From an uncultured Eubacterium sp. (GTDB lineage Bacteria; Bacillota; Clostridia; Oscillospirales; Acutalibacteraceae): 56,361 bases of DNA. The position numbers were made by a program, and so were the translations under genes. The DNA is taken from assembly GCA_905233545.1 (NCBI GenBank), contig CAJOEV010000016.1:1-56361 (forward strand). Direction: 5' to 3'. Under the pieces are notes generated by a model. It was not told the DNA's origin. It did no database searches and was given only the letters and a program-made list of their open reading frames with translations. Of the stretch, positions 2,689-45,162 are shown piece after piece. Each line of letters starts with the position of its first letter. The stretch's first letter is position 1.

Positions 2689-2731
2689 TTGTCTGAACGC
2701 AGTGAGTAACCGACAACTCGGAACTTGAAAC
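2689..2731 (-). repeat. Heptamer array plus box, directly after the rimI stop codon
   Basis: Read on the minus strand, the rimI stop TAA is followed at once by GTTTCAA and GTTCCGA, then GTTGTCGGTTACTC and a box complementary to GAACGCAGTGAG. The plus strand closely resembles the minus strand of the array at 37051-37109 (ACTCGG and AACTTGAAACTTA are shared). Confidence 0.65.
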
Positions 2732-3160
2732 TTACAAATACTTAGTCATCAGTAATGCGTCTTCTTCGGGTTCGCGGTAGAATTTTTGCCGAACGCCAAC
2801 AGTTTCAAAACCGAGTTTTGAATAGAGATTGATTGCAGGGATATTGCTTTTGCGAACCTCAAGAGTTAAAAACTCCATTTCATTTTCAAGCGCCTTTTCA
2901 ACAAGCGCCTTCGCAATTCCCTGCTTTCTGTATTCTTTCAGCGTTGCAACATTGGTAACATAGCCTTCACCGCTGAAAACCTGAATACCGATATAACCCA
3001 AAACGAGTTTTCCGTCTTTTGCAAGATAGAAATGCGAACAGGGATTATTCAGCGATTCTTCAATGCTTTTTTCGCTCCAGGGAACAGAAAAGCATTCATC
3101 TTCAATTTTCTTTATATCAGCAACATCATCAAGCGTTGCCCTTACAATTTCATAATTCAT
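2732..3160 (-). CDS. rimI: Ribosomal-protein-alanine N-acetyltransferase RimI (GNAT)
   Basis: RimI acetylates the N-terminal alanine of ribosomal protein S18 using acetyl-CoA. The 142-residue product starts MNYEIVRATLDDV. It has the GNAT acetyl-CoA loop in the stretch VATLKEYRKQGIAKAL (Q-G-I-A, about residues 71-86) and the C-terminal N-I-P-A-I-N-L-Y-S-K-LGF motif. A GTG twelve bases upstream is also open, but it lies inside a TGACCAC heptamer repeat, so I prefer the ATG at 3160; the ribosome site is weak for both. The gene follows polA after a repeat-filled gap of 23 bases and precedes tsaD, as in many Firmicutes. Confidence 0.9.
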   Translation of the reverse strand: MNYEIVRATLDDVADIKKIEDECFSVPWSEKSIEESLNNPCSHFYLAKDGKLVLGYIGIQVFSGEGYVTNVATLKEYRKQGIAKALVEKALENEMEFLTLEVRKSNIPAINLYSKLGFETVGVRQKFYREPEEDALLMTKYL

Positions 3161-3162
3161 AT

Positions 3163-3183
3163 TACTGACCACTGACCACTAAT
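3163..3183 (-). repeat. TGACCAC heptamer array between polA and rimI
   Basis: About two and a half AGTGGTC units on the minus strand begin three bases after the polA stop and run up to the rimI start. The same unit occurs at 7774-7797, 11950-11998 and 42824-42873. Confidence 0.65.
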
Positions 3184-5766
3184 TTAGTGCGCGTCAAACC
3201 ATGTTCTGCCCAAAGAGCCGTCAGCTCTGAGAAGGACTTTCATTTTGCAGGCATTTTCCATTTCTTCGGTTACAATTCTGAGCGCTTTTTCCGCTTCATC
3301 CTCGGGTGCTTCAACAATCAGTTCATCGTGCACCTGGAGAATCAGCTTTGCTTTCATATTTTCCTTTGTTAAGCGCTCGTCGACTTTAATCATAGCGATT
3401 TTGATTATATCCGCAGCTGTTCCCTGAATGGGCATATTCCTTGCAACTCTTTCACCGAAGGATCTGAGCATATGATTTGATGAATTAAGCTCGGGCAGAT
3501 AGCGCCTTCTGTTGAAGAGGGTTTCGCTGTAGCCTTTTTCTTTTGCTAGGTCAATCATATGATTCATATAATTTGCAACTCCGCTGTAGGTTGCAAGATA
3601 GTTGTCGATATACTCCTGCGCTTCTTTCCTTGTTACGCCGATATCCTTTGCAAGCGAAAACGCACCGATACCGTAAACAATTCCGAAGTTAACCGCCTTT
3701 GCGCGTGAACGGAGCTGTTTTGTTATCATTTCAGCAGGCAATCCGAAAACCTGGGATGCGGTTATCGTGTGTATATCGTCGCCCCTGTTGAAAGCGTTTA
3801 TCATATTTTCATCGTTTGAAAGGTCGGCAAGAACACGAAGCTCAATCTGGCTGTAGTCAGCGTCAACAAGCATATTCCCCGTGCCGGCAACAAAGAATTT
3901 TCTCATCTCTCTGCCGAGCTCTGTCCTTATCGGGATATTCTGAAGATTGGGCTCAAGCGAGCTTATTCTTCCCGTTCTTGTTTCAACCTGGTTGAACGAG
4001 GTATGAATTCTTCCGTCCTCGGCAATAACCTTCAATAATCCGTCGCAGTAGGTTGACTTAAGCTTTGTAAGACTTCTGTATTCAAGGATACAGCTGATAA
4101 CGGGATGCTCGTTGATAAGCCCTTCAAGCACCTCCGCATTTGTTGAATAGCCCGTTTTTGTTTTCTTTTTGCAGGGCAGTTGTAAATCCTCAAAAAGTGC
4201 AACGCCGAGCTGTTTTGGCGAATTGATATTGAATTCATAGCCGACGAAATTATAAATCTGTTCTGTCAGCTCGTCTATCCTGATTGAAAGCTTCTTTGAA
4301 AATTCTTCAATTCCGCTTTTATCAACAGAAAAACCGACGATTTCCATTTTTGCAAGAACTCTTGCAAGCGGAAGCTCGATTTCATCTAAAAGCTTGGTCT
4401 GGTTTGCCTCGTCAAGAAGCATATTTGTTTTATCAAAAAGCGGTTTTAAAACCGATGCAAGCGAAACATTTTCGTCCTCACCGCCGAGAGGATTGCTGTA
4501 TTCAGGAACGGCAATATTGTAATCAAGACATAAATGCTCAATATCATAGTTATTATCCGACGGTTTGAGAAGATATGCACTGAGCATCAAATCACCTGCA
4601 ACATTTTTGCAGTCGGTGCCGAGTTTTGCTGCAAGGCGGTGAAGCTGTTTTGAAAAATAGGTATATTTCTTTATAGCTTCATCCTCAAAAAGTTTCTTGA
4701 CAATTGCGCTGAAATCCGGGTTTTCAGAATGAAGAACAAGAATATCATCACCGAAAGCAAAATATATATCGCTAATAGTGTTATCAATAACAACGGGGTA
4801 TAAATAGACCTCGTTTTCTATTTTTTCAAAGAGTTCATTTGCACTGACCGGCTCTGAGCAGGTTATTTCTCTTTCCTTTGTCGGAGCGATAACCTGAGCT
4901 GCGTCATTTGCGTCAAGCTCAAACCTCGGCATAAGCGAATAGAGTTCAAGCCTTGAAAACTCACCTGCCGCAGCCTTTAAATCTTCGGGCTGAACTTTAT
5001 ATGCATTGATATCTGTTTCAATCGGAGCAGCGCAATTAATTTCGCCGAGAGCAAGTGAAAGATAAGCGTTTTCCTTGTCTTTAATCAGCTTCGCGCGAAC
5101 GCCCTCTTTTATATCGAGTGTTTCAATATTTTCATAGATATAATCAATGCTGCCGTATTTAGAAATCAAATCAAGCGCTGTTTTCGGTCCGACTCCCTGA
5201 ACACCGGGAATATTATCCGAGCTGTCACCCTGGAGCGCCTTGACCTGAATAAGCTGAACGGGCGTTACGCCGTATTCATCAATAATTGCTTTTTCATCAT
5301 AAACATCCGTTGCATTTGTTCTTGCAAGAAGCACCTTGACCGTTCCGTGAGCAAGCTGGAGCGAATCTCTGTCACCCGTTGCAATAAAGCACTCGTCCCC
5401 GTTTTCACGGCATTTCAGCGCGAGAGTTCCGAGAATATCGTCCGCTTCCCAGCCTTCGCATTCAACAATTTTGTAGCCCAGAAGCTTAAGCAGATTTTTT
5501 AAAACGGGCATCTGCGCTCTGAGCTCGTCCGGCATACCGTGGCGCCCTGCCTTGTATGCGTCATACATCTTATGCCTGAAAGTCGGCGCATGAACATCAA
5601 AGGCAACCGCAACCGCATCGGGCTGACTCATTTCCTTGAGTCTTAACAGGATATTTAAAAAGCCATAGATAGCATTGGTGTAATCGCCGTTTTTAGTGGT
5701 TAAAAGCTTAATACCGTAAAACGCACGGTTGACAATGCTGTTTCCGTCAATAACAAGTAGTTTCAT
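3184..5766 (-). CDS. polA: DNA polymerase I
   Basis: PolA fills gaps and removes RNA primers in replication and repair. The 860 residues comprise an N-terminal 5'-3' exonuclease (LLVIDGNSIVNRAFYG; EGWEADDILGTL; IQVKALQGDSSDNIPG), a degenerate 3'-5' exonuclease region (about 300-470) and an intact polymerase. In the polymerase, motif A DADYSQIELRVLADLS lies near 635, motif B RSRAKAVNFGIVYG near 690 and motif C VHDELIVE near 814. The exonuclease region lacks the DxE pair, showing VVIDNTISDIYFAF where proofreading enzymes have it, so proofreading is probably lost, as in Bacillus and Thermus enzymes. It is divergent from alr with its own promoter. Confidence 0.97.
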   Translation of the reverse strand: MKLLVIDGNSIVNRAFYGIKLLTTKNGDYTNAIYGFLNILLRLKEMSQPDAVAVAFDVHAPTFRHKMYDAYKAGRHGMPDELRAQMPVLKNLLKLLGYKIVECEGWEADDILGTLALKCRENGDECFIATGDRDSLQLAHGTVKVLLARTNATDVYDEKAIIDEYGVTPVQLIQVKALQGDSSDNIPGVQGVGPKTALDLISKYGSIDYIYENIETLDIKEGVRAKLIKDKENAYLSLALGEINCAAPIETDINAYKVQPEDLKAAAGEFSRLELYSLMPRFELDANDAAQVIAPTKEREITCSEPVSANELFEKIENEVYLYPVVIDNTISDIYFAFGDDILVLHSENPDFSAIVKKLFEDEAIKKYTYFSKQLHRLAAKLGTDCKNVAGDLMLSAYLLKPSDNNYDIEHLCLDYNIAVPEYSNPLGGEDENVSLASVLKPLFDKTNMLLDEANQTKLLDEIELPLARVLAKMEIVGFSVDKSGIEEFSKKLSIRIDELTEQIYNFVGYEFNINSPKQLGVALFEDLQLPCKKKTKTGYSTNAEVLEGLINEHPVISCILEYRSLTKLKSTYCDGLLKVIAEDGRIHTSFNQVETRTGRISSLEPNLQNIPIRTELGREMRKFFVAGTGNMLVDADYSQIELRVLADLSNDENMINAFNRGDDIHTITASQVFGLPAEMITKQLRSRAKAVNFGIVYGIGAFSLAKDIGVTRKEAQEYIDNYLATYSGVANYMNHMIDLAKEKGYSETLFNRRRYLPELNSSNHMLRSFGERVARNMPIQGTAADIIKIAMIKVDERLTKENMKAKLILQVHDELIVEAPEDEAEKALRIVTEEMENACKMKVLLRADGSLGRTWFDAH

Positions 5767-5795
5767 AAGTTCACCTTATAATAAAAATTCGTTTT

Positions 5796-5824
5796 ATTAT
5801 ATCATAATAATACATAATTTACAA
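5796..5824 (-). promoter_or_regulatory. Sigma-A promoter of polA
   Basis: On the minus strand TTGTAA (5824-5819), a 17-base spacer and TATAAT (5801-5796) lie 30 bases before the polA start. It sits back to back with the alr promoter, only five bases apart, so the two start sites share one short divergent region. Confidence 0.7.
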
Positions 5825-5829
5825 TACAC

Positions 5830-5858
5830 TTGAAATTTTAACATAAAAGTTATAAAAT
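5830..5858 (+). promoter_or_regulatory. Sigma-A promoter of alr
   Basis: TTGAAA, a 17-base spacer and TAAAAT lie 30 bases before the alr ATG. A strong GGAGG ribosome site follows at 5876-5880. Confidence 0.75.
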
Positions 5859-5887
5859 ATACGCAATGATACATTGGAGGCAGAAAA

Positions 5888-7012
5888 ATGTATTTCAGAA
5901 CCGAAGCTCAGATAAGCCTTGACGCTGTTGAGTTCAATTATAACAACACAAGAAAAAAACTGCCCGAAAAAACAAAGCTTCTCGGCGTTATCAAAGCCGA
6001 CGCTTACGGTCACGGCGCAGTAGAGATAGGAAAGTTTCTTGATGAAAAATGCGACTTTTTCGGAGTTGCCTGCTTATATGAAGCGCTTGAGCTTATTAAT
6101 GCGGGAATCAAAACCCCGATTTTAATTCTCGGATATGTTTCTCAGGATGAATTTGAAGCGGTTGTTAAAAACGGTATAAGAATTCCTATTTTTCATTTTG
6201 AAGATGCAAAAGCACTTTCGGACGAAGCGAAGAAACAGGGTAAAAATATTCCCTATCATTTTTGCATAGATACGGGAATGAGCCGTATCGGTTTTCAGGT
6301 AAATGAAGAAAGCGCAGATATCTGCAAGGAGATTGCGAAGCTTGATAATATTTATCCCGAAGGACTTTTTTCTCATTTTGCAACCGCCGATGAAACCGAC
6401 TTATCAAAAGCGCTCAGACAGAGGGACAAGTTTGATGAATTCGTAAATCTCCTCAAGGAAAGAGATATTGAAATTCCGATTAAGCATATCAACAACAGCG
6501 CGGGAATAATGAATTTCGACAAGAGCTATGATATGTGCAGAATGGGAATAATTCTCTACGGTCTTTATCCCTCGCACGAGGTTGATGAAAGTCTGCTTGA
6601 TATCAAACCCGTTATGAGATGGATATCCCATATCTCCCACATTAAAACGCTTGAGGCAGGGCGCGAAATCTCCTACGGCGGAACATTTAAAACCGAAAAG
6701 GAAACCTGCGTTGCAACAGTCCCCGTCGGCTATGCGGACGGCTATCCGAGATGCCTTTCAAACAAGGGCAAGGTTCTTATAAACGGCAAAGAAGCAAGGA
6801 TTTTAGGCAGAGTTTGTATGGACCAGTTCATGGTTGATATAAGCGAAATTCCCGAGGCAGAAATCGGAAGCGAGGTCGTTTTGGTAGGCGACGGACTTTC
6901 AATGGAAGAAGTTTCCGAAGCGGCGTATTCCTTCAACTACGAGCTCCCCTGCCGAATAACAAAACGAGTTCCGAGAGTGTTTTATATAAACGGAAAACCA
7001 ATAAGCATTTAG
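5888..7012 (+). CDS. alr: Alanine racemase
   Basis: Alr is a PLP enzyme that converts L-alanine to D-alanine for peptidoglycan stems. The 374-residue length is typical. The PLP lysine is in LLGVIKADAYGHGA (about residue 38), the catalytic tyrosine in REISYGGTFK (about residue 263), and the C-terminal half carries GYADGYPR and GRVCMDQFMVDIS. The start has GGAGG eight bases upstream. The long palindrome immediately after the stop codon could serve as its terminator as well as the operator of the next gene. Confidence 0.97.
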   Translation: MYFRTEAQISLDAVEFNYNNTRKKLPEKTKLLGVIKADAYGHGAVEIGKFLDEKCDFFGVACLYEALELINAGIKTPILILGYVSQDEFEAVVKNGIRIPIFHFEDAKALSDEAKKQGKNIPYHFCIDTGMSRIGFQVNEESADICKEIAKLDNIYPEGLFSHFATADETDLSKALRQRDKFDEFVNLLKERDIEIPIKHINNSAGIMNFDKSYDMCRMGIILYGLYPSHEVDESLLDIKPVMRWISHISHIKTLEAGREISYGGTFKTEKETCVATVPVGYADGYPRCLSNKGKVLINGKEARILGRVCMDQFMVDISEIPEAEIGSEVVLVGDGLSMEEVSEAAYSFNYELPCRITKRVPRVFYINGKPISI

Positions 7013-7524: not shown

Positions 7525-7578
7525 TAGTTACGAGCTCCGAGCCCCGAGTTCCGAGTTTCCGGTTACTACCGGTCAATT
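7525..7578 (+). repeat. GAGTTCC-type heptamer array after the ohrR stop codon
   Basis: About four 7-base units (GAGCTCC, GAGCCCC, GAGTTCC, GAGTTTC) begin within a few bases of the ohrR stop. They are followed by CGGTTACTACCGGTCAA, which contains a small CCGGT inverted motif. The units match those at 2689-2731 and 37051-37109. Confidence 0.65.
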
Positions 7579-7625
7579 AGTTAAGGATAAATAAAAATGA
7601 ATGGATTATTCCATTTTATTATAAC

Positions 7626-7735
7626 TGTAGGGCGCGACGCCCTCGACGCGCCGCAGAGAAGAGTTCGTTTCATTTATTTGTTATAGTAGCATAAGTGCAG
7701 CTGCAACGGCGCGTCAAGGGGTGTCGCGCCCTACA
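7626..7735. repeat. 110-base inverted-repeat element (MITE-like)
   Basis: The left arm (7626-7653) begins TGTAGGGCGCGACGCC and the right arm (7707-7735) ends GGTGTCGCGCCCTACA. The arms are about 28 bases each and nearly perfectly complementary, and the interior of about 53 bases is unrelated and non-coding. The ends match the CCCTACA ending of the single hairpins at 1484, 2654 and 45189, so this looks like two copies in inverted order. No clear target-site duplication was seen. Confidence 0.6.
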
Positions 7736-7763: not shown

Positions 7764-7773
7764 TTTTCTCTGC

Positions 7774-7797
7774 CCACCGGTCGCTGACCACTGACTG
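7774..7797 (-). repeat. Short TGACCAC heptamer array at the LRR-gene stop codon
   Basis: On the minus strand the TAG stop is followed directly by CAGTCAG, TGGTCAG and CGACCGGTGG, in the same 7-base register as other TGACCAC arrays. Confidence 0.55.
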
Positions 7798-13469: not shown

Positions 13470-13493
13470 AGTTAGTTTCCTCTTTTTACTCTA

Positions 13494-13558
13494 TAATCGG
13501 AGCGAAGCGACCCGAAATTATTCATTCTTCATTCTTCATTCTTCATTTTTCATTGAAA
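13494..13558 (-). repeat. Common box plus ATTCTTC heptamer array after the ddh stop codon
   Basis: On the plus strand ATCGGAGCGAAGCGACCCG is followed by AAATT and about five ATTCTTC-like units, ending against the ddh stop codon at 13559. The first 26 bases are identical to those at 22651-22676. Confidence 0.75.
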
Positions 13559-14545: not shown

Positions 14546-14572
14546 TTAAACCTTACCTCCATAATGTAGTTA

Positions 14573-14625
14573 TAATCGGGTGTGGGCAGCGCCCACCCTC
14601 AATTCTTCATTCTTAATTCTTCATT
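14573..14625 (-). repeat. Heptamer array directly after the dapF stop codon
   Basis: On the minus strand the stop TAG is followed in register by AATGAAG, AATTAAG, AATGAAG and AATTGAG, then by GGTGGGC and GCCCACA arms of a small hairpin in place of the usual box. Confidence 0.7.
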
Positions 14626-15459
14626 CTAAATTTCACCTTCGAAGACGGTGACAGCCGGACCTGTCATAATAACGCTGTCGGCTTCATTTCCGCTCCAGCT
14701 TATCTGAAGGTCTCCACCTAAAAGATGAACGGTTACATCATTATCACAATAGCCGTTAATGATTGCCGCAACCGCAGTTGCACAGGCTCCTGTTCCGCAG
14801 GCAAGCGTTTCGCCCGAGCCTCTCTCCCAAACACGCATTTCAAGATTTTTTCTGTCGATAACCTTAACAAATTCGGTGTTTGTTCTGTCGGGAAAAACGG
14901 GGTTGTTTTCAAACTTGGGACCGATTTTCTCAAGTTCAATTTCCTTTGGCGATTTTTCAATAAAGATAACCGCATGAGGATTGCCCATTGAAACGCAGGT
15001 CATTTTATATTCCTTACCGTCAACGGTAATGGGCTCATTAACAGCCTTTTCGTTGTCGGAAATAACGGGAATTTTGCCTGATTCAAGAATCGGCTTGCCC
15101 ATATCAACCTTTGCTCCGACAGCCTTGCCGTTTTCAACTTTCAAATCAATGTACTTAATTGCACCCATTGATTCAATTGCAAGAGTTGTTTTATCGGTCA
15201 GCTTATGGTCGAAAACAAATTTTGCAACACATCTGATTCCGTTGCCGCACATTGCTCCGCGAGAGCCGTCGGCATTATACATAACCATTTCAAAATCAGC
15301 GATATCACTCTTCTTTATAAGAATCATTCCGTCGCCGCCGATTCCGAAATGTCTGTCCGAAACTTCGATAGCCGCCCTCTCTTCATTTTCAATAACATTT
15401 TCGGTGCAGTCAATATAAACATAGTCGTTTCCGCAGCCGTGCATTTTTGTGAATTTCAT
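14626..15459 (-). CDS. dapF: Diaminopimelate epimerase
   Basis: DapF converts LL-DAP to meso-DAP for lysine and peptidoglycan without a cofactor. The 277-residue product has both catalytic cysteines, in GAMCGNGIRC (about 73) and ETLACGTGACA (about 217), and the N-terminal KFTKMHGCGNDYVYID. An in-frame extension upstream to 15633 runs through the promoter and is rejected; the ATG at 15459 has AGGTGA at good spacing. It has its own promoter, divergent from glgB, and is followed by ddh and purB. Confidence 0.96.
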   Translation of the reverse strand: MKFTKMHGCGNDYVYIDCTENVIENEERAAIEVSDRHFGIGGDGMILIKKSDIADFEMVMYNADGSRGAMCGNGIRCVAKFVFDHKLTDKTTLAIESMGAIKYIDLKVENGKAVGAKVDMGKPILESGKIPVISDNEKAVNEPITVDGKEYKMTCVSMGNPHAVIFIEKSPKEIELEKIGPKFENNPVFPDRTNTEFVKVIDRKNLEMRVWERGSGETLACGTGACATAVAAIINGYCDNDVTVHLLGGDLQISWSGNEADSVIMTGPAVTVFEGEI

Positions 15460-15746: not shown

Positions 15747-17630
15747 ATGACTGATCTTAAAGAAGAATATCAGCTTCCGATATATCTGTTTCATGACGGC
15801 ACGAACTACAAGGCATATGAGTTCTTCGGCGTTCATAAAATAGATAAGACCCGCTATGCTTTCAGGGTGTGGGCGCCGGGCGCTGAAGGAGTCAGTGTTG
15901 TCGGCGATTTCAACAACTGGGACGAAAACGCTCACAGATGTTTTCCGATATCACCGGGAATCTGGGAAGCAATAATTGACAATCTGAATGTATACGACTG
16001 CTATAAATACTCCATTAAGACCAAAGACGGCAGAACTCTTCTCAAAGCCGACCCGTATGCAGTTCACCAGGAAACAAGACCTGCAACAGGCTCAAAGGTA
16101 TATGAGCTGAGCGACTATAAATGGGGCGACAAAAAATGGCAGACAGCTAAAACCAAGGGAAATATTCTTGAAAAGCCCGTTAACATTTATGAAATCCATT
16201 TCGGCTCATGGAAACAGCATGAGGACGGCAATTTCTTAACCTACAGAGAAATGGCAGACGAGCTTGTTCCGTATGTTAAGGAAATGGGATACACGCATAT
16301 TGAAATGCTTCCTATTATGGAATTCCCGTTTGACGGCTCCTGGGGCTATCAGGTTACAGGATATTTTGCCGCAACATCAAGATACGGCATCCCCGAGGAT
16401 TTGATGTATTTCATTGATAAGTGCCACCAGAATAACATCGGCGTTATTCTTGACTGGGTACCCGCTCACTTCCCCAAGGACGCACACGGTCTTTATGAAT
16501 TTGACGGAACCTGCTGCTATGAATATGCCGACCTCAAAAAGGGCGAGCACAAGGAATGGGGCACAAGAGTTTTTGACTACTCCAAAAAAGAGGTTGTCTC
16601 CTTCCTGCTTTCATCGGCAATGTTCTGGGTTGACAAATACCATTTTGACGGACTCAGGGTTGACGCAGTTGCTTCAATGCTCTATCTCGACTACGGAAGA
16701 AAGAACGGCGAATGGACACCGAACAAAAACGGCGGACGCGAAAATCTTGAAGCAGTTGCATTCTTCCAGAATCTTAATTCGGCAATGTTCAAAGAGCATC
16801 CCGATGTTATGATGATTGCAGAAGAATCAACGGCATGGCCGATGATAACAATGCCGACTGATATCGGCGGTCTCGGTTTCAATTTCAAGTGGAATATGGG
16901 CTGGATGAACGATATGCTTCGCTACACATCCATGGACCCGCTGTTCAGAAAGGGCAATCATAACTGCATAACGTTCAGCTTCTTCTATGCATTCTCGGAA
17001 AACTTTGTTCTTCCGATAAGCCACGACGAGGTTGTTCACGGAAAAGCAAGCCTGCTCAACAAAATGCCCGGTGACTATGATATGAAATTCGATGGAATGA
17101 GATTATTCCTTGCATATATGATGGCTCACCCCGGAAAGAAGCTTCTGTTTATGGGAAGCGAATTCGGTCAGTTCATTGAATGGAACTACAAGCAGGGACT
17201 TGACTGGATGCTTCTTGATTATGAAAAGCACAAGAAACTCGCTAATTTCACAAAGGAACTCAACAAGTTCTATAAAGACCACAGCGAGCTCTGGGAGATT
17301 GACTACTCCTGGGAAGGCTTCCAGTGGATTTCAAGCGAGGATAACTGCAACAGCGTTATCGCATTCAGAAGAATCAACAAAAAGGGCGAAGAGATTATTG
17401 CTGTTTTCAACTGGACACCGAACAGCTTTGAAAGCTACAAAATCGGCGTACCCGAAAAAGGCACCTATAAAGTCGTGCTTGATACATCGCTTGCAAAATT
17501 CGGCGGTGACAAAGCAAGACTTTCAGGAACATATAAGTCAGTTAAAGAGCCTATTCACGGCTTCGACAACCACATCAATCTTAAACTGCACGGTCTTTCG
17601 GCAGTTTATCTGAAAAAACAAAAAGATTAA
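15747..17630 (+). CDS. glgB: 1,4-alpha-glucan branching enzyme
   Basis: GlgB makes alpha-1,6 branches in glycogen. The 627-residue protein has an N-terminal CBM48 (AFRVWAPGAEGVSVVGDFNNW, about 35-110), a GH13 catalytic barrel and a C-terminal beta domain. The catalytic Asp is in GLRVDAVASM (about 306), the Glu in MIAEESTAWP (about 359), and the transition-state Asp in PISHDEVVHGK. GSWGYQVTGYFA is another family signature. It is the first gene of the glgB-C-D-A operon, 21 bases before glgC. Confidence 0.97.
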   Translation: MTDLKEEYQLPIYLFHDGTNYKAYEFFGVHKIDKTRYAFRVWAPGAEGVSVVGDFNNWDENAHRCFPISPGIWEAIIDNLNVYDCYKYSIKTKDGRTLLKADPYAVHQETRPATGSKVYELSDYKWGDKKWQTAKTKGNILEKPVNIYEIHFGSWKQHEDGNFLTYREMADELVPYVKEMGYTHIEMLPIMEFPFDGSWGYQVTGYFAATSRYGIPEDLMYFIDKCHQNNIGVILDWVPAHFPKDAHGLYEFDGTCCYEYADLKKGEHKEWGTRVFDYSKKEVVSFLLSSAMFWVDKYHFDGLRVDAVASMLYLDYGRKNGEWTPNKNGGRENLEAVAFFQNLNSAMFKEHPDVMMIAEESTAWPMITMPTDIGGLGFNFKWNMGWMNDMLRYTSMDPLFRKGNHNCITFSFFYAFSENFVLPISHDEVVHGKASLLNKMPGDYDMKFDGMRLFLAYMMAHPGKKLLFMGSEFGQFIEWNYKQGLDWMLLDYEKHKKLANFTKELNKFYKDHSELWEIDYSWEGFQWISSEDNCNSVIAFRRINKKGEEIIAVFNWTPNSFESYKIGVPEKGTYKVVLDTSLAKFGGDKARLSGTYKSVKEPIHGFDNHINLKLHGLSAVYLKKQKD

Positions 17631-22634: not shown

Positions 22635-22649
22635 AGTAAAATCACCTTA

Positions 22650-22696
22650 AAATCGGAGCGAAGCGACCCGAAATTCTCAATTCTCAACTCTCAACT
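22650..22696 (-). repeat. Common box plus TCAACTC heptamer array after the HAD gene stop codon
   Basis: On the plus strand ATCGGAGCGAAGCGACCCG and AAATT are followed by TCAATTC, TCAACTC, TCAACTC and TAAATTC. On the minus strand the stop TAG continues in register as AGTTGAG, AGTTGAG, AATTGAG. Confidence 0.75.
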
Positions 22697-23554
22697 CTAA
22701 ATTCGCCCGTTTGCAATATCCTCGTCCGCCTTACCGCTCATAATATAGTTAAGCAAATCCGCAACACATCCTTTGTTGCAGTGGCAAGCATGGAATTTGG
22801 ATATCCTTTTAATTGAGCCAGGAGCCTGTCCTGCACAGGCAGGAAGACCGACGGTATGAAGCATATCCCAGTCGTTATAATAATCTCCGATAGCTGCAAC
22901 ATGGCTTTTATCAATATCGAGCATATCCGCAAGCTTCATTATTCCAACGCCCTTATGAGTGTCCTTCTGAAGCATTTCAAGAGTAACCGCTGTTGAAGGC
23001 ATAAAGTTTGCATCGGGATTTTCCATTGTTAAAATCCTGCTCTGCAGACGCATCATCGTTGGAGGAAGCGCCCAAAATATAACCTTCATCCAGCCCTCTT
23101 CGGGAACTTCGTCAACCGATTTGACATATTCAAAATGTGCCTTATCAAAACGCATTGTGCTTTTTGAAAGGAGTCCGCTGTGAACTACATAAACATAATC
23201 ATCAAAATATATTCCGATATCAACACTTTTGAAAAGGTCGTCAAACTCCGTTGAAATGTATTTAACGAATTCCCTTCCCTTTTCGCCGATAGTGTTTCGC
23301 CATATCATCTTTTGCTGATTATAGTCGTACAAGCCCGCACCGTTTAAAACAACTGCAGGCTGATTGGGAGATATTCTGTTGTAATTTCTTCCAAGACTGG
23401 ATTGAGTTCTGCCCGAAGCGAGAGTAAAGTTTCCGCCGAGCTGAGTGAACTTTCTGATTGCTTCAATATTAACAGGAGGAATATATCTCATTTTGTTTTT
23501 GAGAGTTCCGTCAATATCCGAAACAACAAGCCAGTTTTCAAAGGTTCTTTCCAT
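22697..23554 (-). CDS. HAD-superfamily (Cof-type) phosphatase
   Basis: The 285-residue product has the nucleophile motif VVSDIDGTLKNK (Asp pair, residues about 12-14), motif II LASGRTQSS, and the C-terminal acidic motif AIGDYYNDWDML. A large C2 cap lies in between, as in Cof/YidA sugar- or cofactor-phosphate phosphatases. I chose the ATG at 23554 because GGGAGC precedes it; an in-frame TTG 12 bases upstream overlaps that ribosome site. The substrate cannot be told. The tail has a cluster of Cys/His (FHACHCNKGC) near residue 265. Confidence 0.85.
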   Translation of the reverse strand: MERTFENWLVVSDIDGTLKNKMRYIPPVNIEAIRKFTQLGGNFTLASGRTQSSLGRNYNRISPNQPAVVLNGAGLYDYNQQKMIWRNTIGEKGREFVKYISTEFDDLFKSVDIGIYFDDYVYVVHSGLLSKSTMRFDKAHFEYVKSVDEVPEEGWMKVIFWALPPTMMRLQSRILTMENPDANFMPSTAVTLEMLQKDTHKGVGIMKLADMLDIDKSHVAAIGDYYNDWDMLHTVGLPACAGQAPGSIKRISKFHACHCNKGCVADLLNYIMSGKADEDIANGRI

Positions 23555-34324: not shown

Positions 34325-34340
34325 TCCCCTCACCCCCTTT

Positions 34341-34395
34341 TGTTAATTATGAATTCGGAATTATGAATGATGAATTTCGGGTTGCTGCGCTCCGA
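34341..34395 (-). repeat. Common box plus AATTATG heptamers after the mutS stop codon
   Basis: On the minus strand the mutS stop TAA is followed at once by TCGGAGCGCAGCAACCCG and AAATTC, then CATCATTC, ATAATTC, CGAATTC and ATAATTAACAAAAGG. It lies between mutS and mutL. Confidence 0.7.
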
Positions 34396-37029
34396 TTATA
34401 ATTCTTCGACCTTTTTCTTCAAGTTATAAAGAGTCTGCATTGCCTCAATGGGCGTTAATGTATTTATGTCAACCGTTTTGATAAGCTCAAGAATATCTTC
34501 GGTTGAATTGGTTTTGAAATTATATTGAATATCCGTTTCATCCTCTTCAATAAGAGCCTCGTCGGATTTAAACTCAATTTCGATTTTGTTTGATTCAAGT
34601 TCTTTCAGAATCACCTTTGCGCGCTTGATAACGCTTTGGGGCAATCCTGCAAGCTTTGCAACCTCGATACCGAAGCTCTGGTCGGCACCGCCCTTTACTA
34701 TTCTTCGAAGGAAGGTTATATCATCGCCCCTCTTTTTAACGGCAATTGAATAGTTGTTTACTCCGTCGAGCATACCCTCCATTGCAGTAAGCTCATGATA
34801 GTGGGTTGCAAAAAGAGTTTTTGCGCCGAGAGTCTTTTTCTTAACAACAAATTCAAGCACTGCTCTTGCAATACTCATACCGTCGAAGGTTGAAGTTCCT
34901 CTTCCGATTTCGTCAAGAATAATCAGTGAGTTTTCAGTTGCATTTTTAAGTATTGATGAAACCTCATTCATCTCAACCATAAAGGTTGACTGTCCTGTTG
35001 CAAGGTCATCGGACGCGCCGACTCTTGTGAATATCGCATCAACAATTCCTATTCTTGCGCTCTTGGCAGGAACAAACGAGCCAATCTGAGCAAGCAGAGT
35101 AATAAGCGCTGTCTGACGCATATATGTTGACTTACCCGCCATATTCGGACCTGTGATTATCGAACAGAGGTTTTTGTTTTTATCAAGATAGGTGTCGTTG
35201 GGAACGAACACTGCATCCGTCATAAGTGTTTCAACAACGGGATGGCGTCCTTCCTTAATATCAATAACACCGTCGTTTGTTATGCTCGGACAGCAGTAGT
35301 TATTAACATATGCCACCTGAGCCAGAGAAGCAAGCGTGTCGAGCGTTGCAAGCGCCTTTGCGGTTTTCTGAATTCGCATTGCCTCGCCTGCTATCTGATT
35401 TCTTACGGTTACAAAGGTTTCGTATTCAAGAGAAACAAGCCTTTCCTTTGCACCGAGAACCTTTCCCTCAAGCTCTTTAAGCTCCTGGGTTATAAATCTT
35501 TCGCAATTTGTTAAAGTCTGTTTTCTTATGTAGTCCTCGGGAACTAAATCAAGATATGAATTTGTTACCTCGATGAAATATCCGAAAACTTTGTTATATG
35601 AAACTCTGAGCTTCGGTATTCCCGTTCTTTCTTTTTCTCTTGCTTCAATTTCTGCAAGAAGGCTTGTTCCGCCGCCGACAATATCGGCAAGCTCATCAAT
35701 TTCGGCATTGAAGCCCTTTCTGATTATTCCGCCCTCTCTTAAGCTGAACGGAGGTTCATCAACTATCGCACTGTCGATTAAACCTTTGACATCCTCAAGC
35801 AAATCAATGTTCTCAAAGACTGCTTTGAGCATTGCGCTTGAAACCGAGGAAAGCTTATCTTTAATTGTCGGGAAATGCTCGATTGCCGCCGAGAGAGATT
35901 TAAGCTCCTTTGCGTTTGCAGTTGAATATGCAATTCGGGAGAGCAGTCTTTCAATATCGTTTATTCCCGATAAGGATTCGCGGATATCATCCCTTAGATA
36001 CTCATCATCAAAAAGCTCCGCAATTGCGTTCTGCCTTTTTGTTATAAGCGTAATATTAATAAGCGGCTTTTCAAGCCATGAGCGAAGCATTCTTTTGCCC
36101 ATTGCAGTTCTTGTTTTGTCAATAACCCAAAGCAGAGAGTGCTTTTTATCACCGCTCATCATTGACTTTGTCAGCTCAAGATTTCTTCTTGCATTCAAAT
36201 CAAGCGCCATAAAATCGTCTTTATCATAAAAATCGAGCTCGCTTGGCGCTTCAATATTATTTGTTTTCTGAGTGTCTCGAAGATAACAGATAACTGCCCC
36301 GAGAGCGCTTACAGCACATTTGCTGTGACCTATTCCGAGTGAGGATATTTCATCCCTGCTGATAGTTTCAAGAATAACCTCGGTTGAATTGTTGAAATCA
36401 AAATAGCTCTCTTCAAGCTTTTCAAAAGAGGAATTCAACCTTTCCGAAGCGAATTTTGCAACCTTGTCAAAAGCATGGGCGCTTTCATTTACAATAATCT
36501 CCTTGGGAGAATAAATTGAAAGCTGGTTTATGATTTTTTCTTCAATATTATAGCCGTTGACAACAGTTATATGGAATTCACCCGTTGAAACATCAGCAAA
36601 GCACATTCCTGTTTCTTCGCCGCCTGTGCAAATTGAGCAGAGATAGTTATTAACGCCGTCCTCAAGAATATTGCTTTCAATAACCGTTCCGGGAGTTATA
36701 ACTCTTATTACATCTCTTTTAACAATGCCCTTTGCAGCTTTCGGGTCCTCGGTCTGTTCGCAGATAGCAACCTTGTATCCTCGGGATACAAGCTTTGCAA
36801 TATAGCTGTCCGCACTGTGGAACGGAACTCCGCACATCGGAGCTCTTTCATCCTGACCGCAATCCCTTCCCGTTAAAACGAGGTCAAGCTCTTTTGATGC
36901 AGTTTTTGCATCATCAAAAAACATCTCATAGAAATCACCGAGGCGGAAGAATAAAATCACGCCCGGATAATCTTTTTTAATCTGAAAATACTGCTGCATC
37001 ATCGGTGATAATTCGCCGTTTTTTGCCAT
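34396..37029 (-). CDS. mutS: DNA mismatch repair protein MutS
   Basis: MutS binds mismatches and slides as an ATP-bound clamp. The 877 residues include the mismatch-contact motif RLGDFYEMF (about 26-34, Phe-x-Glu), connector and clamp domains, and a C-terminal ATPase. The Walker A is GPNMAGKSTYMRQ, the ABC signature STFMVEMNE, and Walker B LIILDEIGRGTST. GGAGGG precedes the ATG. It sits in the miaB-(ymcA)-mutS-mutL-miaA order known from Bacillus, here without cotE. Confidence 0.98.
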   Translation of the reverse strand: MAKNGELSPMMQQYFQIKKDYPGVILFFRLGDFYEMFFDDAKTASKELDLVLTGRDCGQDERAPMCGVPFHSADSYIAKLVSRGYKVAICEQTEDPKAAKGIVKRDVIRVITPGTVIESNILEDGVNNYLCSICTGGEETGMCFADVSTGEFHITVVNGYNIEEKIINQLSIYSPKEIIVNESAHAFDKVAKFASERLNSSFEKLEESYFDFNNSTEVILETISRDEISSLGIGHSKCAVSALGAVICYLRDTQKTNNIEAPSELDFYDKDDFMALDLNARRNLELTKSMMSGDKKHSLLWVIDKTRTAMGKRMLRSWLEKPLINITLITKRQNAIAELFDDEYLRDDIRESLSGINDIERLLSRIAYSTANAKELKSLSAAIEHFPTIKDKLSSVSSAMLKAVFENIDLLEDVKGLIDSAIVDEPPFSLREGGIIRKGFNAEIDELADIVGGGTSLLAEIEAREKERTGIPKLRVSYNKVFGYFIEVTNSYLDLVPEDYIRKQTLTNCERFITQELKELEGKVLGAKERLVSLEYETFVTVRNQIAGEAMRIQKTAKALATLDTLASLAQVAYVNNYCCPSITNDGVIDIKEGRHPVVETLMTDAVFVPNDTYLDKNKNLCSIITGPNMAGKSTYMRQTALITLLAQIGSFVPAKSARIGIVDAIFTRVGASDDLATGQSTFMVEMNEVSSILKNATENSLIILDEIGRGTSTFDGMSIARAVLEFVVKKKTLGAKTLFATHYHELTAMEGMLDGVNNYSIAVKKRGDDITFLRRIVKGGADQSFGIEVAKLAGLPQSVIKRAKVILKELESNKIEIEFKSDEALIEEDETDIQYNFKTNSTEDILELIKTVDINTLTPIEAMQTLYNLKKKVEEL

Positions 37030-37050: not shown

Positions 37051-37109
37051 ATAAGTTTCAAGTTTCGAGCACCGAGTTCCGAGTTTTCGGTAACTCGCTT
37101 CGCTCGAAC
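37051..37109 (+). repeat. AGTTCCG heptamer array plus box upstream of mutS
   Basis: AGTTTCA, AGTTTCG, AGCACCG, AGTTCCG and AGTTTTC are followed by GGTAACTCGCTTCGCTCGAA. The complement matches the array at 2689-2731. It lies between the YmcA-like gene and mutS, 78 bases after the stop of the former. The rest of the 37030-37187 gap shows no gene. Confidence 0.7.
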
Positions 37110-40792: not shown

Positions 40793-40846
40793 TCTAAATA
40801 AAACATCGCCGTTCTTTCAAGTTCGAAAGAATGGCGGCACCAAGAA

Positions 40847-40887
40847 AGCAACCAAAGGGGAATGAAAAATCTCCGCGCTTGGTTGCT
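40847..40887 (+). terminator. Intrinsic terminator after malQ
   Basis: Nine-base arms AGCAACCAA and TTGGTTGCT enclose a 23-base loop and are followed by TTTTTT. A second hairpin (arms 40807-40818 and 40825-40836, one G-U pair) lies between it and the stop codon. Confidence 0.8.
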
Positions 40888-40982
40888 TTTTTGCATATTG
40901 ATTGTTAATTCCCTTTTATAAGCCACAATTCGTGTCTTAACGCGAGAGAATAAAGTTTTAAATTTACTCTACAAAATAAAAA

Positions 40983-41294: not shown

Positions 41295-41305
41295 TTTTTC
41301 TCCCT

Positions 41306-41782: not shown

Positions 41783-41848
41783 ATTTATACCTTCATATAA
41801 TTGTTTTTTTCATTATATCACAGCATATAAGAAAATGCAAAATTAACA

Positions 41849-41869
41849 GCTCCCTTTTCACAAGGGAGC
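41849..41869. terminator. Intrinsic terminator hairpin
   Basis: Eight-base arms GCTCCCTT and AAGGGAGC close a five-base loop, 14 bases beyond the stop codon at 41883. TTTTTT follows on the plus strand; the minus-strand tract (GTTAATTTT) is weaker. Confidence 0.65.
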
Positions 41870-41882
41870 CGTTTTTTATGCA

Positions 41883-42692
41883 CTATCTTTCATTGTTGCA
41901 GCAGTTATTATTGTTTTCGTCTCTCTCACTCGGGAAGAATTCTTCAACGGGGAAATCAATTCCCTGGAAGGTTGTGCAAGCGTCCTGAGTGTTGCACTGA
42001 CATTCTCTTTCGGGAATGCAATAATCATATGCGGGAATCAACATCTGGCAGTCGCGTTCCATCTGAACTATTGAAAAAAGTCCAAGCGAAACAAGAACTG
42101 CTTTTTCACCCGTCGTAACGGGAACAGGGTCAACAACCTCGTCAAGAATGCTTTGAGGGAAAGTGGTTATAAGCGCAGGGATGTCGGGTGTTGTTGCTTC
42201 AAGAATATCGGTGTCAAGAATAACCGGGTCAACAAGCTGAACTTTTGCATTCGGGCTTGTGTACTGCGGTGACTCGGCGCATTCAAGATTATCTGTTTCA
42301 GCGCTTGAAGCAAAGATTTTAACTCTGCCCTCTGAGCCGTAAAGAATACATTTTTTATTGAAGCTTGTGTATCCCTCGGCAACCTGCGGTGTTGTGCACA
42401 AAGCAGAATAAGTATCAAAACCAACCTTGAAATAGCAGGTTATGTCAACGCTGTAGTATCCTCTGTTAAACGGAACCTCGTCAACATCAACGCTTACCGC
42501 CTCAACGCTTGAATATCTGGTTTTAACGTTAACCGCATTATCGATTAAATCCTGATTGTCATCGAAGAAGGTTACTCTCAACTCTTCAAGACAATCCTTG
42601 CTTACGCAGGAATCAAAAATTCGTTTTGTATCAACACATACGGTTTCATTTAATTTTCTTTCGCTATTATTAATAATAGGAACATCAGGCAT
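41883..42692 (-). CDS. Conserved clostridial Cys-rich protein of unknown function
   Basis: The 269-residue product has no signal peptide or membrane segment. It has a repeated-looking beta-rich core with ETVCVDTKRIFDSCVSKDC, EELRVTFF, VDEVPFNRGYYSVDITCYF and KCILYGSEGRVKIFAS. The tail is Cys/Asn/Asp-rich, ending DENNNNCCNNER. I recall proteins of this pattern as widespread hypotheticals in spore-forming clostridia, which would fit a coat or surface-layer role, but that is inference. It has GAAGGAG, its own promoter and an operator-like palindrome. Confidence 0.65.
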   Translation of the reverse strand: MPDVPIINNSERKLNETVCVDTKRIFDSCVSKDCLEELRVTFFDDNQDLIDNAVNVKTRYSSVEAVSVDVDEVPFNRGYYSVDITCYFKVGFDTYSALCTTPQVAEGYTSFNKKCILYGSEGRVKIFASSAETDNLECAESPQYTSPNAKVQLVDPVILDTDILEATTPDIPALITTFPQSILDEVVDPVPVTTGEKAVLVSLGLFSIVQMERDCQMLIPAYDYCIPERECQCNTQDACTTFQGIDFPVEEFFPSERDENNNNCCNNER

Positions 42693-42715
42693 AAAAATAC
42701 TCCTTCACAAATTAT

Positions 42716-42763
42716 TTGAAGCTAACTTCAATACATTGTATGAAGGAGATACTTTTTTGTTAA
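42716..42763 (-). promoter_or_regulatory. Promoter and palindrome before the 41883-42692 gene
   Basis: On the minus strand TTAACA (42763-42758), a 17-base spacer and TACAAT (42740-42735) form a promoter whose -35 touches the end of a heptamer array. The 16-base palindrome TTGAAGCTAACTTCAA (42716-42731) sits just after the -10, where a repressor could bind. Confidence 0.6.
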
Positions 42764-42823
42764 TTGAGAGTTGAGAGTTGAGAATTGAGAATTGCGGTTA
42801 TTCGCTTCGCTCCGATTGTATAA
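42762..42823 (+). repeat. AGTTGAG heptamer array plus common box
   Basis: AATTGAG, AGTTGAG, AGTTGAG, AATTGAG and AATTGCG are followed by GGTTATTCGCTTCGCTCCG and ATTGTATAAT. The complement gives the box GGAGCGAAGCGA, then ATAACCGC, then the heptamers. Confidence 0.75.
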
Positions 42824-42873
42824 TAGCTATGCGCAGCACCAAAAACTGACCACTGACCACCGACCACTGACCA
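42824..42873 (-). repeat. TGACCAC heptamer array after the pcrA stop codon
   Basis: On the minus strand the pcrA stop TAG is followed directly by TGGTCAG, TGGTCGG, TGGTCAG and TGGTCAG, then TTTTTGGTGCTGCGCATAGC, a shortened version of the box. It abuts the array at 42762-42823, making a composite. Confidence 0.75.
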
Positions 42874-45162
42874 CTATAATTTCTCAAGCTTTGCAAAGTT
42901 TGCCATAAGCTTCTTTGTTCCCGCTTTATCAAATGCAACCTCAAGCAGAACATCGTTGCCCATCGGCTGGGTTGAAAGAATAACGCCCGTTCCGAAGCTC
43001 TTATGGCGAACAGTGTCACCCGTATTATATTTAACATCCGAAGCTGTTTTTGAAGCTCCTGCCTGCCCGAACTGATGAGCTGCTGACGAACTTTGTTTCG
43101 GGTCGCCAATCTGGCGCGAACGGCTGTATTTGTGGTCTTTTTTCGGCGTTCCGAAGGAATAATAATCGTTATCCGTTTTAAAGCCCGACGAAAAGCCGTA
43201 GCTTTTCTGAACATAAGTGCTTCTGTCGTCGGTTACATCCTGCGGAATTTCTTTAACAAATCTTGATATTGTGTTCCTGTTGGTTGTTCCGTAAAGCATT
43301 CTCTGGCGTGCATTAATAAGATACAGCTTTTCCTTTGCTCTTGTTATTCCGACATATGCAAGACGGCGTTCTTCCTCAAGCTCCTCATCGCTGTATAAAC
43401 TCTGGTTGCCGGGGAATATTCCCTCTTCAAGACCGGGGATGAAAACAACGGGGAATTCAAGTCCCTTCGCGGAATGAAGAGTCATCAGAACAACACAATC
43501 GTCATCCTCGTTATAAGAATCAATGTCCGAAACAAGCGCAACATCTTCAAGAAAATCAGTGAGCGAGAAGCTTTCCTCCTCTTCCTCATACTTGATAAGC
43601 ATTGAAGAAAGCTCGCTGACATTGTTCTTTCTGTCGTCCGCTTTTATCGGGTCCTCTTCATCAAGATAATCAAAATATTTTGTTTTTTCAAGAACTTCCT
43701 GAAGCAAATCATTAACGCTCATTCCGTCCTCTAAGCAGGTCTGAAAATGCTTTATCAGCTCACAGAAATCCTTGAGTTTTCCTGCGCTTCTTGCAGTTTT
43801 TGAAAACTCTTCGGCGTGCTCGCACACCTCAAACGCCGTCATATGATTAAGCGTTGCAATTTCAAGGATATAGGAGAACATTGTGTCGCCTATTCCTCTT
43901 TTCGGAGTGTTAATTATTCTCTGCAAACGGACATTGTCGGCAGGATTGCTGATAACTGCAAAATAGGAAATAATATCTTTTATTTCCTTTCTGTCAAAGA
44001 AACGGTTTCCTCCGATTATCTTATAGGATATGCCCGATTTTGCAAGCATGATTTCTATGTTTCTAGACTGGGCGTTCATACGGTATAAAACAGCGTGGTC
44101 GCGGTAGCTTCTGCCGTTTTTAACATTTTCGTTTATCTCATCAACAATGAACTGAGCCTCATCCATTTCGCTGTTTGCAGTGTATAAAACAACCTTTTCG
44201 CCCGCCTGCCCCGTATATGAAAGCAGGTGTTTATCCGCAAGTCGGGTGTTGTTATTTTTGATAACGGAATTGGCAGCATCGAGAATGTTCTGCTTCGAAC
44301 GGTAGTTTTCAGCAAGCTCAAGCTGAATAACTTTCAGCCCCTCATTTTCATAGCGTTCCTTAAAGCGCATAATGTTCTCAATCGTTGCGCCTCTGAAACG
44401 GTATATACTCTGGTCATCATCACCGACAACACAGATATTATGATACTCGCCTGCAAGCAGATAGGTTAAAACATACTGTGCATAGCTTGTATCCTGATAC
44501 TCATCAACAATAACATATTTAAACTGGTGCTGATAGAGCTGAAGAACATCTTCATTTTCTTTAAGAAGACGAACTGTATTGAAAATCATATCGTCGAAAT
44601 CCATCGCGTCCGCTTTGAGAAGTTCTTTCTGGTATTCTTCATAGCACTGAGCAATTTTAGCTTTTCTGAAATCATTTACCGTTGTGGCTTTATATTCTTT
44701 GCAGTCAACAAGGCTGTCCTTTGCATTGCTGATTTCTGCAAGAATTGAACGGTGGTTTAAAAACTTATCCTCAATACCGAGGGACTTCTGAACGCGCTTC
44801 ATTACACGCTTCTGGTCATCGGTATCATATATTGTGAAATGCTGAGAATATCCCAGTCTGTCGGCAAATCTTCTGAGCATTCTTGCACACATTGAATGGA
44901 AGGTCTGAGCCCATATGTCATTTGCCTCATCACCTACTGTGTTAAGCAGTCTTTCTTTGAGCTCACCTGCCGCCTTGTTAGTAAAGGTTATTGCAAGAAC
45001 CTGCCAGGGGAGCGCATAGCCATCATTTAAAATATGCTCGATTCTTTTAACTATTGTTGCGGTTTTGCCCGTTCCTGCTCCTGCTACAACAAGCACTGGA
45101 CCGTCAACTGCTTCAATAACTTTCTGCTGCTGAATATTCGGTTTTACTGCGTCTTTGTTCAT
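42874..45162 (-). CDS. pcrA: ATP-dependent DNA helicase PcrA/UvrD
   Basis: PcrA is a 3'-5' SF1A helicase used in repair, plasmid replication and removal of stalled RNA polymerase. The 762 residues have Walker A VVAGAGTGKTATIVKR, motif II VIVDEYQDTSYAQ, DDDQSIYRFRGA, LAENYRSKQNIL, and motif VI RRLAYVGITRAKEKLYL. The C-terminus (GDTVRHKSFGTGVILS) is the Tudor-like RNA-polymerase-binding domain. It lies 61 bases downstream of oadB, separated by a CCCTACA hairpin. Confidence 0.97.
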   Translation of the reverse strand: MNKDAVKPNIQQQKVIEAVDGPVLVVAGAGTGKTATIVKRIEHILNDGYALPWQVLAITFTNKAAGELKERLLNTVGDEANDIWAQTFHSMCARMLRRFADRLGYSQHFTIYDTDDQKRVMKRVQKSLGIEDKFLNHRSILAEISNAKDSLVDCKEYKATTVNDFRKAKIAQCYEEYQKELLKADAMDFDDMIFNTVRLLKENEDVLQLYQHQFKYVIVDEYQDTSYAQYVLTYLLAGEYHNICVVGDDDQSIYRFRGATIENIMRFKERYENEGLKVIQLELAENYRSKQNILDAANSVIKNNNTRLADKHLLSYTGQAGEKVVLYTANSEMDEAQFIVDEINENVKNGRSYRDHAVLYRMNAQSRNIEIMLAKSGISYKIIGGNRFFDRKEIKDIISYFAVISNPADNVRLQRIINTPKRGIGDTMFSYILEIATLNHMTAFEVCEHAEEFSKTARSAGKLKDFCELIKHFQTCLEDGMSVNDLLQEVLEKTKYFDYLDEEDPIKADDRKNNVSELSSMLIKYEEEEESFSLTDFLEDVALVSDIDSYNEDDDCVVLMTLHSAKGLEFPVVFIPGLEEGIFPGNQSLYSDEELEEERRLAYVGITRAKEKLYLINARQRMLYGTTNRNTISRFVKEIPQDVTDDRSTYVQKSYGFSSGFKTDNDYYSFGTPKKDHKYSRSRQIGDPKQSSSAAHQFGQAGASKTASDVKYNTGDTVRHKSFGTGVILSTQPMGNDVLLEVAFDKAGTKKLMANFAKLEKL

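Follow-up and report, generated by a model that had tools for sequence, protein, structure and literature searches.

Heptad arrays at the gene ends of a clostridial contig, probable arms of gene-less elements related to S23 genes

Why do genes on one clostridial contig repeatedly end in short tandem arrays that differ in their 7-base unit but share its period, and why do these arrays so often begin at the stop codon? The contig, C16 of an uncultured Eubacterium sp., was analyzed over its whole length of 56,361 bp (the window) and belongs to a 76-contig genome of 2.23 Mb (2,231,579 bases), termed G000; the nearest relatives of its Ddh protein among named genomes come from metagenome-assembled genomes labelled Oscillospiraceae, Eubacterium, and Ruminococcaceae, several of them rumen derived. 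We found that the arrays are parts of short repeated elements with a common plan and that, in related genomes, arms of the same kind frame genes for S23 proteins. We consider it likely that such S23 elements gave rise to the gene-less repeats of which the window arrays are the arms.

Heptad arms and the S23 genes they frame

Period-7 arrays stand well above chance in the window, where 11 segments reach a score of at least 9, against a mean of 0.54 and a maximum of 4 in 50 approximate dinucleotide shuffles, and six reach at least 12, against none in the shuffles. Other periods give 0 to 2 segments each at 3 to 6 and 8 to 13 and five each at 14 and 15; three of the 11 period-7 segments (39135, 46711, and 55843) are A/T-rich or of low complexity. 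The genome was sampled over 836,108 of its 2,231,579 bases, the second batch of stretches being partly picked for containing the core motif described below, and genes were called by a simple home-made scorer of open reading frames (ORFs), so that starts are less certain than stops. This sample holds 160 period-7 segments against 4 to 53 for periods 5, 6, and 8 to 13, and seven of the 160 are intragenic.

Read in gene direction, the gene-less elements follow a common plan of stop codon, array of about 4.5 heptads, short hairpin core, and AT-rich centre, to which full elements add an inverted second half. A half element, with one arm and its hairpin core, measures about 60 bp and an inverted pair with arms head to head about 110 bp, and 23 of the 27 full elements of G000 span 100 to 130 bp. 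Many heptads fit A-R-T-K-N-N-G, and, with up to three mismatches allowed, the genome has 29 copies of the core TCGGGTCGCTTCGCTCCGATTATA, six of them exact, compared with none for a reversed-pattern control. The first-pass annotation of the window had called the arrays variable, which does not fit their copy number; among arrays of at least 22 nt and score at least 10 that face a core motif, length is mostly fixed, at 31 to 33 nt in 81 of 142. Moreover, the order of unit variants recurs across loci (for example, AATTGAG, AATTGAG, AGTTGAG, AATTGAG, AATT), and among 29 distinct arrays in which a single unit has an odd second base, that unit stands in third place in 14 (binomial p = 0.0006). Since the same unit order is found at different loci, arm modules were copied between loci, and since the two arms of a gene-less element mostly differ in heptad and core, its halves have been shuffled. 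The stems of the core hairpins, compared by eye, differ between elements yet remain paired (GTGC/GCAC, GACC/GGTC, and GTCGC/GCGAC; for example, at 34325 to 34395 of the window).

A search for ORFs between inverted arms yielded 12 pairs, four of which (L212, L214, L262, and L265) enclose a match to PF05635, the 23S rRNA intervening sequence protein (IVP), one of them as a called gene, and no transposase was recognised among the ORFs of these 12 pairs. The copy at L212 scores 106 bits against a curated cut-off of 33.8, which is exceeded by all but one among the matches listed. A complete S23 element spans about 430 to 620 bp, in which two mutually inverted arms of one heptad enclose a single gene for an S23/IVP four-helix-bundle protein. 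At L262 (G230), a 190-nt array of AATGCAG-type heptads (16004 to 16193) adjoins the S23 match, the usual length being 31 to 33 nt.

We compared 12 array-rich congeners, our own selection from 25 with pattern hits, with 18 array-poor ones. At least two PF05635 matches are present in all 12 of the former and in one of the latter, six of which have at least one. The S23 loci covered are 38 of the 55 PF05635 matches (split hits included) in array-rich congeners and 6 of 10 in array-poor ones; the framing counts given here leave out two duplicate loci, L324 and L331. Arrays stand on both sides at 26 of the 38 array-rich loci, 25 of them with a matched inverted heptad, or 28 matched when weaker second arms (score 7 to 8) are counted. 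Among other genes of G000, 19 of 633 are two-sided and 3 matched (3 and 0 of 206 for genes of up to 600 bp; S23 versus others, p = 9e-33). Consistent with this, the arms of one S23 element, once inverted, share an identity of 0.909, compared with 0.606 between elements and a permutation maximum of 0.679 (n = 27, one locus counted twice). Arms of 29 to 34 nt make up 43 of 64 Clostridia S23 arms and 7 of 24 cyanobacterial ones.

Framing extends beyond this genus, to three of eight S23 loci from other Clostridia (six loci), Gemmatirosa, and Azospirillum. S23 genes are abundant in cyanobacteria, as is seen here for plasmids, where 24 of 26 public-plasmid hits are cyanobacterial. Sixteen of the 26 plasmid records with a hit were examined, 14 of them cyanobacterial; arrays stand on both sides of the S23 gene in 11 of these 14 and match in 10, and AGGTGAC, AGTAGGG, AGGGAAC, AGGGTGT, and TCAGGAG are among the heptads. 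On pANA02 the S23 gene alone among 44 coding sequences is framed, and a 50-kb stretch of pNe_5, its S23 gene excluded, has 0 of 40 framed. Some of these plasmid genes lie within CRISPR operons (L296, L299, and L301), flanked by cas6 and cas4 in Anabaena sp. 90 and Pseudanabaena and by cas10 and a Cmr3-family gene in Picosynechococcus. pANA02 also carries, next to a reverse transcriptase, a gene with the annotation Avd (L332, 9043 to 10539). Avd is a protein of diversity-generating retroelements and a four-helix-bundle relative of S23.

The heptad varies between S23 copies, and its identity covaries with protein identity (in Clostridia, Mantel r = 0.635, n = 28, and p = 0.0005; after addition of non-Clostridia, n = 39 and r = 0.516). 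G000 itself has five S23 loci with arms, of heptads TTAGGTG, AGTTCCG, AATGAGG, AATTGAG (a copy with an internal stop), and AATGCAA, while a sixth is flanked weakly and on one side only and a seventh has no arm. When its arrays were compared with these heptads or with variants in the same arms (ten reference heptads; of the arms at the AGTTCCG locus, L289, one scores no more than 8), 73 of 142 agreed exactly and 33 of 142 within one base.

Arrays and S23 genes are also associated across genomes. A generic search pattern, A-R-T-K-N-N-G repeated three and a half times, occurs in 25 of 80 genus genomes and 54 of 391 sampled class genomes and is absent from many congeners; its reversed control is zero in some rich genomes (G002, G242, and G433) and nonzero in others (15 and 10 in G000, 56 and 39 in G072), so the pattern counts are rough. 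In the class sample, counted by hand, S23 is present in 32 of 54 array-positive versus 80 of 337 array-negative genomes (p = 4e-7), and in G244 the sole pattern hit lies 11 bases from the sole S23 match. Common heptads differ among genomes, being AATTGAG in G000 and G006, AATTACG in G002, AATTATG in G076, and AATTAAG with AATTCGG in G051. Between G000 and its nearest relative, G002, 53 orthologous spacers divide into 11 with arrays in both, 7 in G000 only, 5 in G002 only, and 30 in neither, counts that include a few merely A/T-rich segments. The ends of ddh and dapF carry an element in both species, but heptad and core differ, and distant relatives have short empty spacers there. Where one of the two species has a heptad element, the other often has a palindromic repeat of another kind, as it does past the ends of pcrA and the HAD gene (L176 and L022 are among the G002 loci concerned).

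Window elements, their placement, and rival explanations

Nine gene ends had been named in the first-pass annotation, and seven of them (polA, ohrR, ddh, dapF, HAD, mutS, and pcrA) reach a score of at least 9; those of rimI and the leucine-rich repeat (LRR) gene amount to about two degenerate units seen by eye. Two arrays had been overlooked, the second arm of the pcrA element and an array upstream of mutS. In the following, features are on the minus strand unless stated otherwise. The arm 3' of the rimI stop (2687 to 2731, together with a GTCGGTTACTC core) reads as about 2.5 degenerate heptads (AGTTTCA, AGTTCCG, AGTT), and an AGTGGTC-type remnant lies 3' of the LRR gene stop (7773 to 7797); both were read directly and are under the array threshold. 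The array scan gave a solo AGTGGTC array in the interval between the polA stop and the rimI start (3164 to 3180) and, on the plus strand, an AGTTCCG-type arm 6 bp past the ohrR stop (7531 to 7557), whose hairpin core follows at 7558 to 7579 (plus strand, sequence reading). An AATGAAG arm, found by the scan, stands 4 bp past the ddh stop (13517 to 13554), next to the hairpin core TTCGGGTCGCTTCGCTCCGATTATA (13492 to 13516; motif search and sequence reading).

Scan and sequence reading together place an AATGAAG/AATTAAG arm (14602 to 14632) over the dapF stop, which falls in a unit AATTTAG, with the hairpin core GAGGGTGGGCGCTGCCCACACCCGATTATAA read at 14570 to 14601, and an AGTTGAG/AATTGAG arm (22672 to 22703) over the stop of the HAD gene, with a hairpin core at 22648 to 22671 (motif search and sequence reading). 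The mutS element (34345 to 34402, sequence reading) is in reverse orientation, its core (34376 to 34402) overlapping the mutS stop and its arm at 34345 to 34375. Between mutS and the gene upstream, the scan found a GGAACTC-type array, a rotation of AGTTCCG, at 37053 to 37085, with a core at 37087 to 37109. The pcrA element is full: an AGTGGTC arm begins inside the TAG stop of pcrA (42845 to 42875) and is followed by two core halves (42795 to 42844), both from sequence reading, and by an inverted second arm of another heptad, AATTGAG/AGTTGAG (42760 to 42794, array scan). Contigs C16 and C1 begin with about 85 common bases (1 to 90 of the window and 1 to 92 of L002), probably a repeat at which the assembly broke.

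That such arrays exceed chance and cluster at stop codons, as first noticed in the window, is borne out in G000. Among elements with a neighbouring stop, 54 of 90 lie within 16 bp of it and 43 within 4 bp or overlapping it; among those with a neighbouring start, 15 of 85 lie within 16 bp of that. For comparison we used repetitive extragenic palindromic (REP) sequences of G000 that carry a GTAG tag, of which 2 of 12 lie within 16 bp of a stop and 0 of 12 within 4 bp, and the median distance is 6 bp for arrays versus 62 bp for REPs (Mann-Whitney p = 5e-4; n = 90 versus only 12). The result that would have refuted the first-pass annotation, distances like those of other intergenic repeats, was thus not obtained, though in a comparison with only these 12 REPs. 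The anchoring is not as strict, however, as had been claimed: divergent spacers hold 12 of the 102 element clusters, and some other clusters are 100 bp or farther from a stop. Nor was the nearness of repeats to stops new, being already in print (PMC12306157, PMC4692102, PMC4679880; all papers here are cited from excerpts, to which our statements about them apply). REPs have been found within 15 nt of stops, and those near stops influence translation (PMC12306157).

Much of the anchoring would follow from the room available. Array-free tandem spacers have a median of 25 bp, and where the residual spacer is shorter than 60 bp, 31 of 39 tandem elements lie no more than 4 bp from the stop; with insertions spread evenly, 19.2, 27.4, or 31.1 would be expected there for 10, 16, or 20 protected bp before the start, an outcome that hinges on this assumed stretch (the model leaves out elements of A/T only, reducing 102 to 99). 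Stop anchoring is thus largely what short operon spacers permit, given 16 to 20 protected bases before the start. Some excess is left over, with 8 of 32 elements at the stop in residual spacers of at least 60 bp versus about 1 expected and 10 of 17 in convergent spacers versus 4.9 expected, and reflects an unexplained preference or terminators. In long spacers another nine elements lie 28 to 51 bp from the stop and none at 15 to 27 bp, a gap that would fit avoidance of terminators.

The surviving excess, together with the similar placement of S23-bearing elements (of edges that face a stop, 18 of 25 lie within 16 bp of it, and of those that face a start, 9 of 29), is what insertion targeted to stop codons or gene 3' ends, for example through transcript ends, would predict. 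We regard such targeting as unlikely, although it fares best among the alternatives: it is unnecessary in short spacers if 16 to 20 bp are protected, the elements at 28 to 51 bp with none at 15 to 27 bp are as terminator avoidance predicts, arrays also occur in divergent spacers, and the bases upstream of the arms are A/T-rich and nothing more. A TA target duplication behind the anchoring at TAA and TAG was considered and rejected, since no duplication of 2 to 9 bp was found in 36 full elements.

The arm itself sometimes supplies the stop codon. TAG makes up 9 of 25 array-overlapped stops versus 93 of 695 overall (p = 0.003), and the TAG stop, which the first reading placed in the 7-base register of several arrays, does stand in it at dapF, HAD, and pcrA. 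The DapF protein of the window ends at least two residues earlier than its relatives without an element.

Placement directly past stops could also mean that the arrays are conserved regulatory 3' signals, such as terminators, mRNA ends, or ribosome-stalling hairpins, with S23 as the regulator that binds them. The published effect of REPs near stops on translation (PMC12306157) speaks for this, and one full element folds far better than its shuffles (z = -5.0). However, shuffled sequences fold at least as well as the full element at pcrA (z = 1.7), 12 of the 23 orthologous spacers that bear an array do so in just one of G000 and G002 (some of these arrays being merely A/T-rich), and more distant relatives lack the elements at these sites, which makes a conserved signal improbable.

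Spread of elements like REPs or bacterial interspersed mosaic elements (BIMEs) by a Y1 transposase, the REP-associated tyrosine transposase (RAYT), with heptads as flanks, is very improbable. The hairpin cores, inverted pairing, and absent target duplication do recall REP/BIME, and one of two weak Y1 matches in G000 lies between a TTAGGTG array and a remnant of two TTAGGTG units. Among 50 Y1 loci of relatives, however, one has an array at score 12 or more (L127, in the array-bearing genome G015), and Y1 matches occur in 31 of 60 congeners, array-rich or not. The Y1 genes of G000 contain GTAG-REPs rather than heptad cores. RAYT was therefore set aside as the driver, its single suggestive locus in G000, with a far side of two units only that the scan missed, not being upheld in relatives. 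GTAG-tagged REP-like palindromes (TGTAGGG and a CG-rich part) occur in the window at 1476 to 1512, 2646 to 2682, 7625 to 7735, and 45180 to 45215, and the weak RAYT-like Y1 genes of G000, L094 and L095, hold such palindromes inside their reading frame.

Least probable of all is polymerase slippage with a 7-nt step, by which long simple-sequence repeats would survive only in spacers near gene ends: slippage has been proposed for the heptameric repeats over-represented in many bacterial genomes (PMC4692102, PMC4679880), period 7 dominates in window and genome sample, and a few long arrays exist (108 nt at L290), but slippage repeats vary in copy number, whereas array length here peaks at 31 to 33 nt, the arrays are paired and inverted around cores, and the unit order shared by many loci together with the S23 genes framed by matched arms largely refutes it. 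The same fixed length, shared order, and inverted pairing, with S23 framing elsewhere, leave unsupported the hint in the first-pass annotation that some mechanism starts or lengthens repeats where genes end.

A proposed origin

From the established anatomy, arm-module copying, S23 framing, covariation, and placement, a route for the elements may be sketched. Recognition of the arms would fall to the S23 protein, which perhaps binds about five heptads as a pentamer and might help to spread arm-bearing DNA, with gene-less copies acted on in trans. The copying itself would depend on the host and leave no target duplication that can be detected. A heptad particular to each S23 lineage would explain why there are many heptads but a single period. 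The site would be set mostly by survival, insertions persisting at the stop, before or after a terminator; in operon spacers, which are short (median 25 bp without an array), the ribosome-binding site occupies the downstream part, and the arms would therefore stand at the stop. An S23 homopentamer structure has been described (PMC4990558), S23 sequence matches the entries 2gsc (Xanthomonas gene XCC0516) and 2rld, with five chains each, and five A-R-T motifs at 7-base steps in an arm of 31 to 33 nt would suit a pentamer.

Several observations weigh against derivation from S23 elements or against parts of this route. Of the S23 loci in array-rich genomes, 12 of 38 are not two-sided at threshold (three have a weaker matching second arm), as are all six loci of array-poor congeners. 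No PF05635 match was found in 22 of 54 array-positive class genomes, the array-rich G242, G453, and G117 included, and 36 of the 142 G000 arrays have no matching S23 heptad in G000. The array-rich genomes without S23 and the loci that are not two-sided could be due to S23 genes that were lost, left unassembled, or had diverged and to arms that had decayed. The two arms of a gene-less element are barely alike (identity 0.637 within versus 0.600 between elements, p = 0.03; p = 0.11 in G002), and target duplications of 2 to 9 bp were no better supported than in permuted pairs across 36 full elements. Common descent alone could produce the covariation of protein and heptad. The pentamer idea is weakened by cyanobacterial arms, which are far more variable in length (17 to 107 nt). 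The evidence for mobility consists of presence, absence, and replacement between species, and no movement was observed.

S23 elements and known repeats

The analysis joins two orphan subjects, spacer heptamer repeats of unexplained origin and the S23/IVP proteins, which have no known function in the account cited (PMC4990558). A general link between S23 genes and dispersed heptamers was not found in the literature searched (open-licence papers only). We tentatively propose, with somewhat less than even confidence, that S23 elements form an unrecognised class of bacterial mobile DNA in Clostridia, cyanobacteria, and perhaps more widely, which would have no transposase but a small, probably pentameric four-helix-bundle protein reading about five 7-base steps per arm, with a heptad that co-evolves. 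Gene-less derivatives would then include the heptamer repeats of cyanobacteria, Xanthomonas, and Beggiatoaceae, and the rRNA intervening sequences (IVSs) would be a special niche. If the S23 protein not only binds the arms but spreads the elements, they would be mobile DNA that has no recognisable transposase but a family of matched pairs of protein and word, and that reshapes gene ends and supplies stop codons.

Miniature inverted-repeat transposable elements are likewise short, gene-less repeats with inverted ends that exist alongside longer gene-bearing relatives. Here, in contrast, no transposase gene was recognised, no target-site duplication was found, and the arm heptads of one short element usually differ. 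REP/BIME sequences with their RAYT are likewise short hairpins that stand as inverted pairs between genes, at times no more than 15 nt from a stop (PMC12306157), but they have no heptad arms and another protein, and the GTAG-REPs of G000 are located elsewhere.

Also similar are the TAACTGA repeats of Beggiatoaceae, cyanobacteria, and Bacteroidetes, which are intergenic tandem heptamers, some over stops, and for which a mobile binding protein has been speculated (PMC4679880). They differ in having a single heptad and, in the BOGUAY genome, in lying mostly just upstream of starts, and S23 goes unmentioned in the excerpt of that paper. The heptamers of Xanthomonas and Nostoc, GGGAATC and GGGGA[C/T]T, share the period, the intergenic location, and a common number of about four units; those of Xanthomonas often form inverted pairs, and GGGAATC lies within 50 bp of or over stops (PMC4692102), in an account that, as excerpted, mentions neither S23 nor a helix bundle.

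A further likeness is to the IVSs with an S23 ORF in Coxiella and Leptospira. An IVS lies within a 23S rRNA gene, whereas the window elements, and S23 loci with called neighbours, lie between protein genes, with matched arms on both sides of the S23 gene and many gene-less copies. Like the S23 elements described here, however, the IVS places an S23 ORF in a hairpin-forming element, which has been termed selfish, and in Coxiella two to three tandem heptamers stand upstream of that ORF (PMC4990558).

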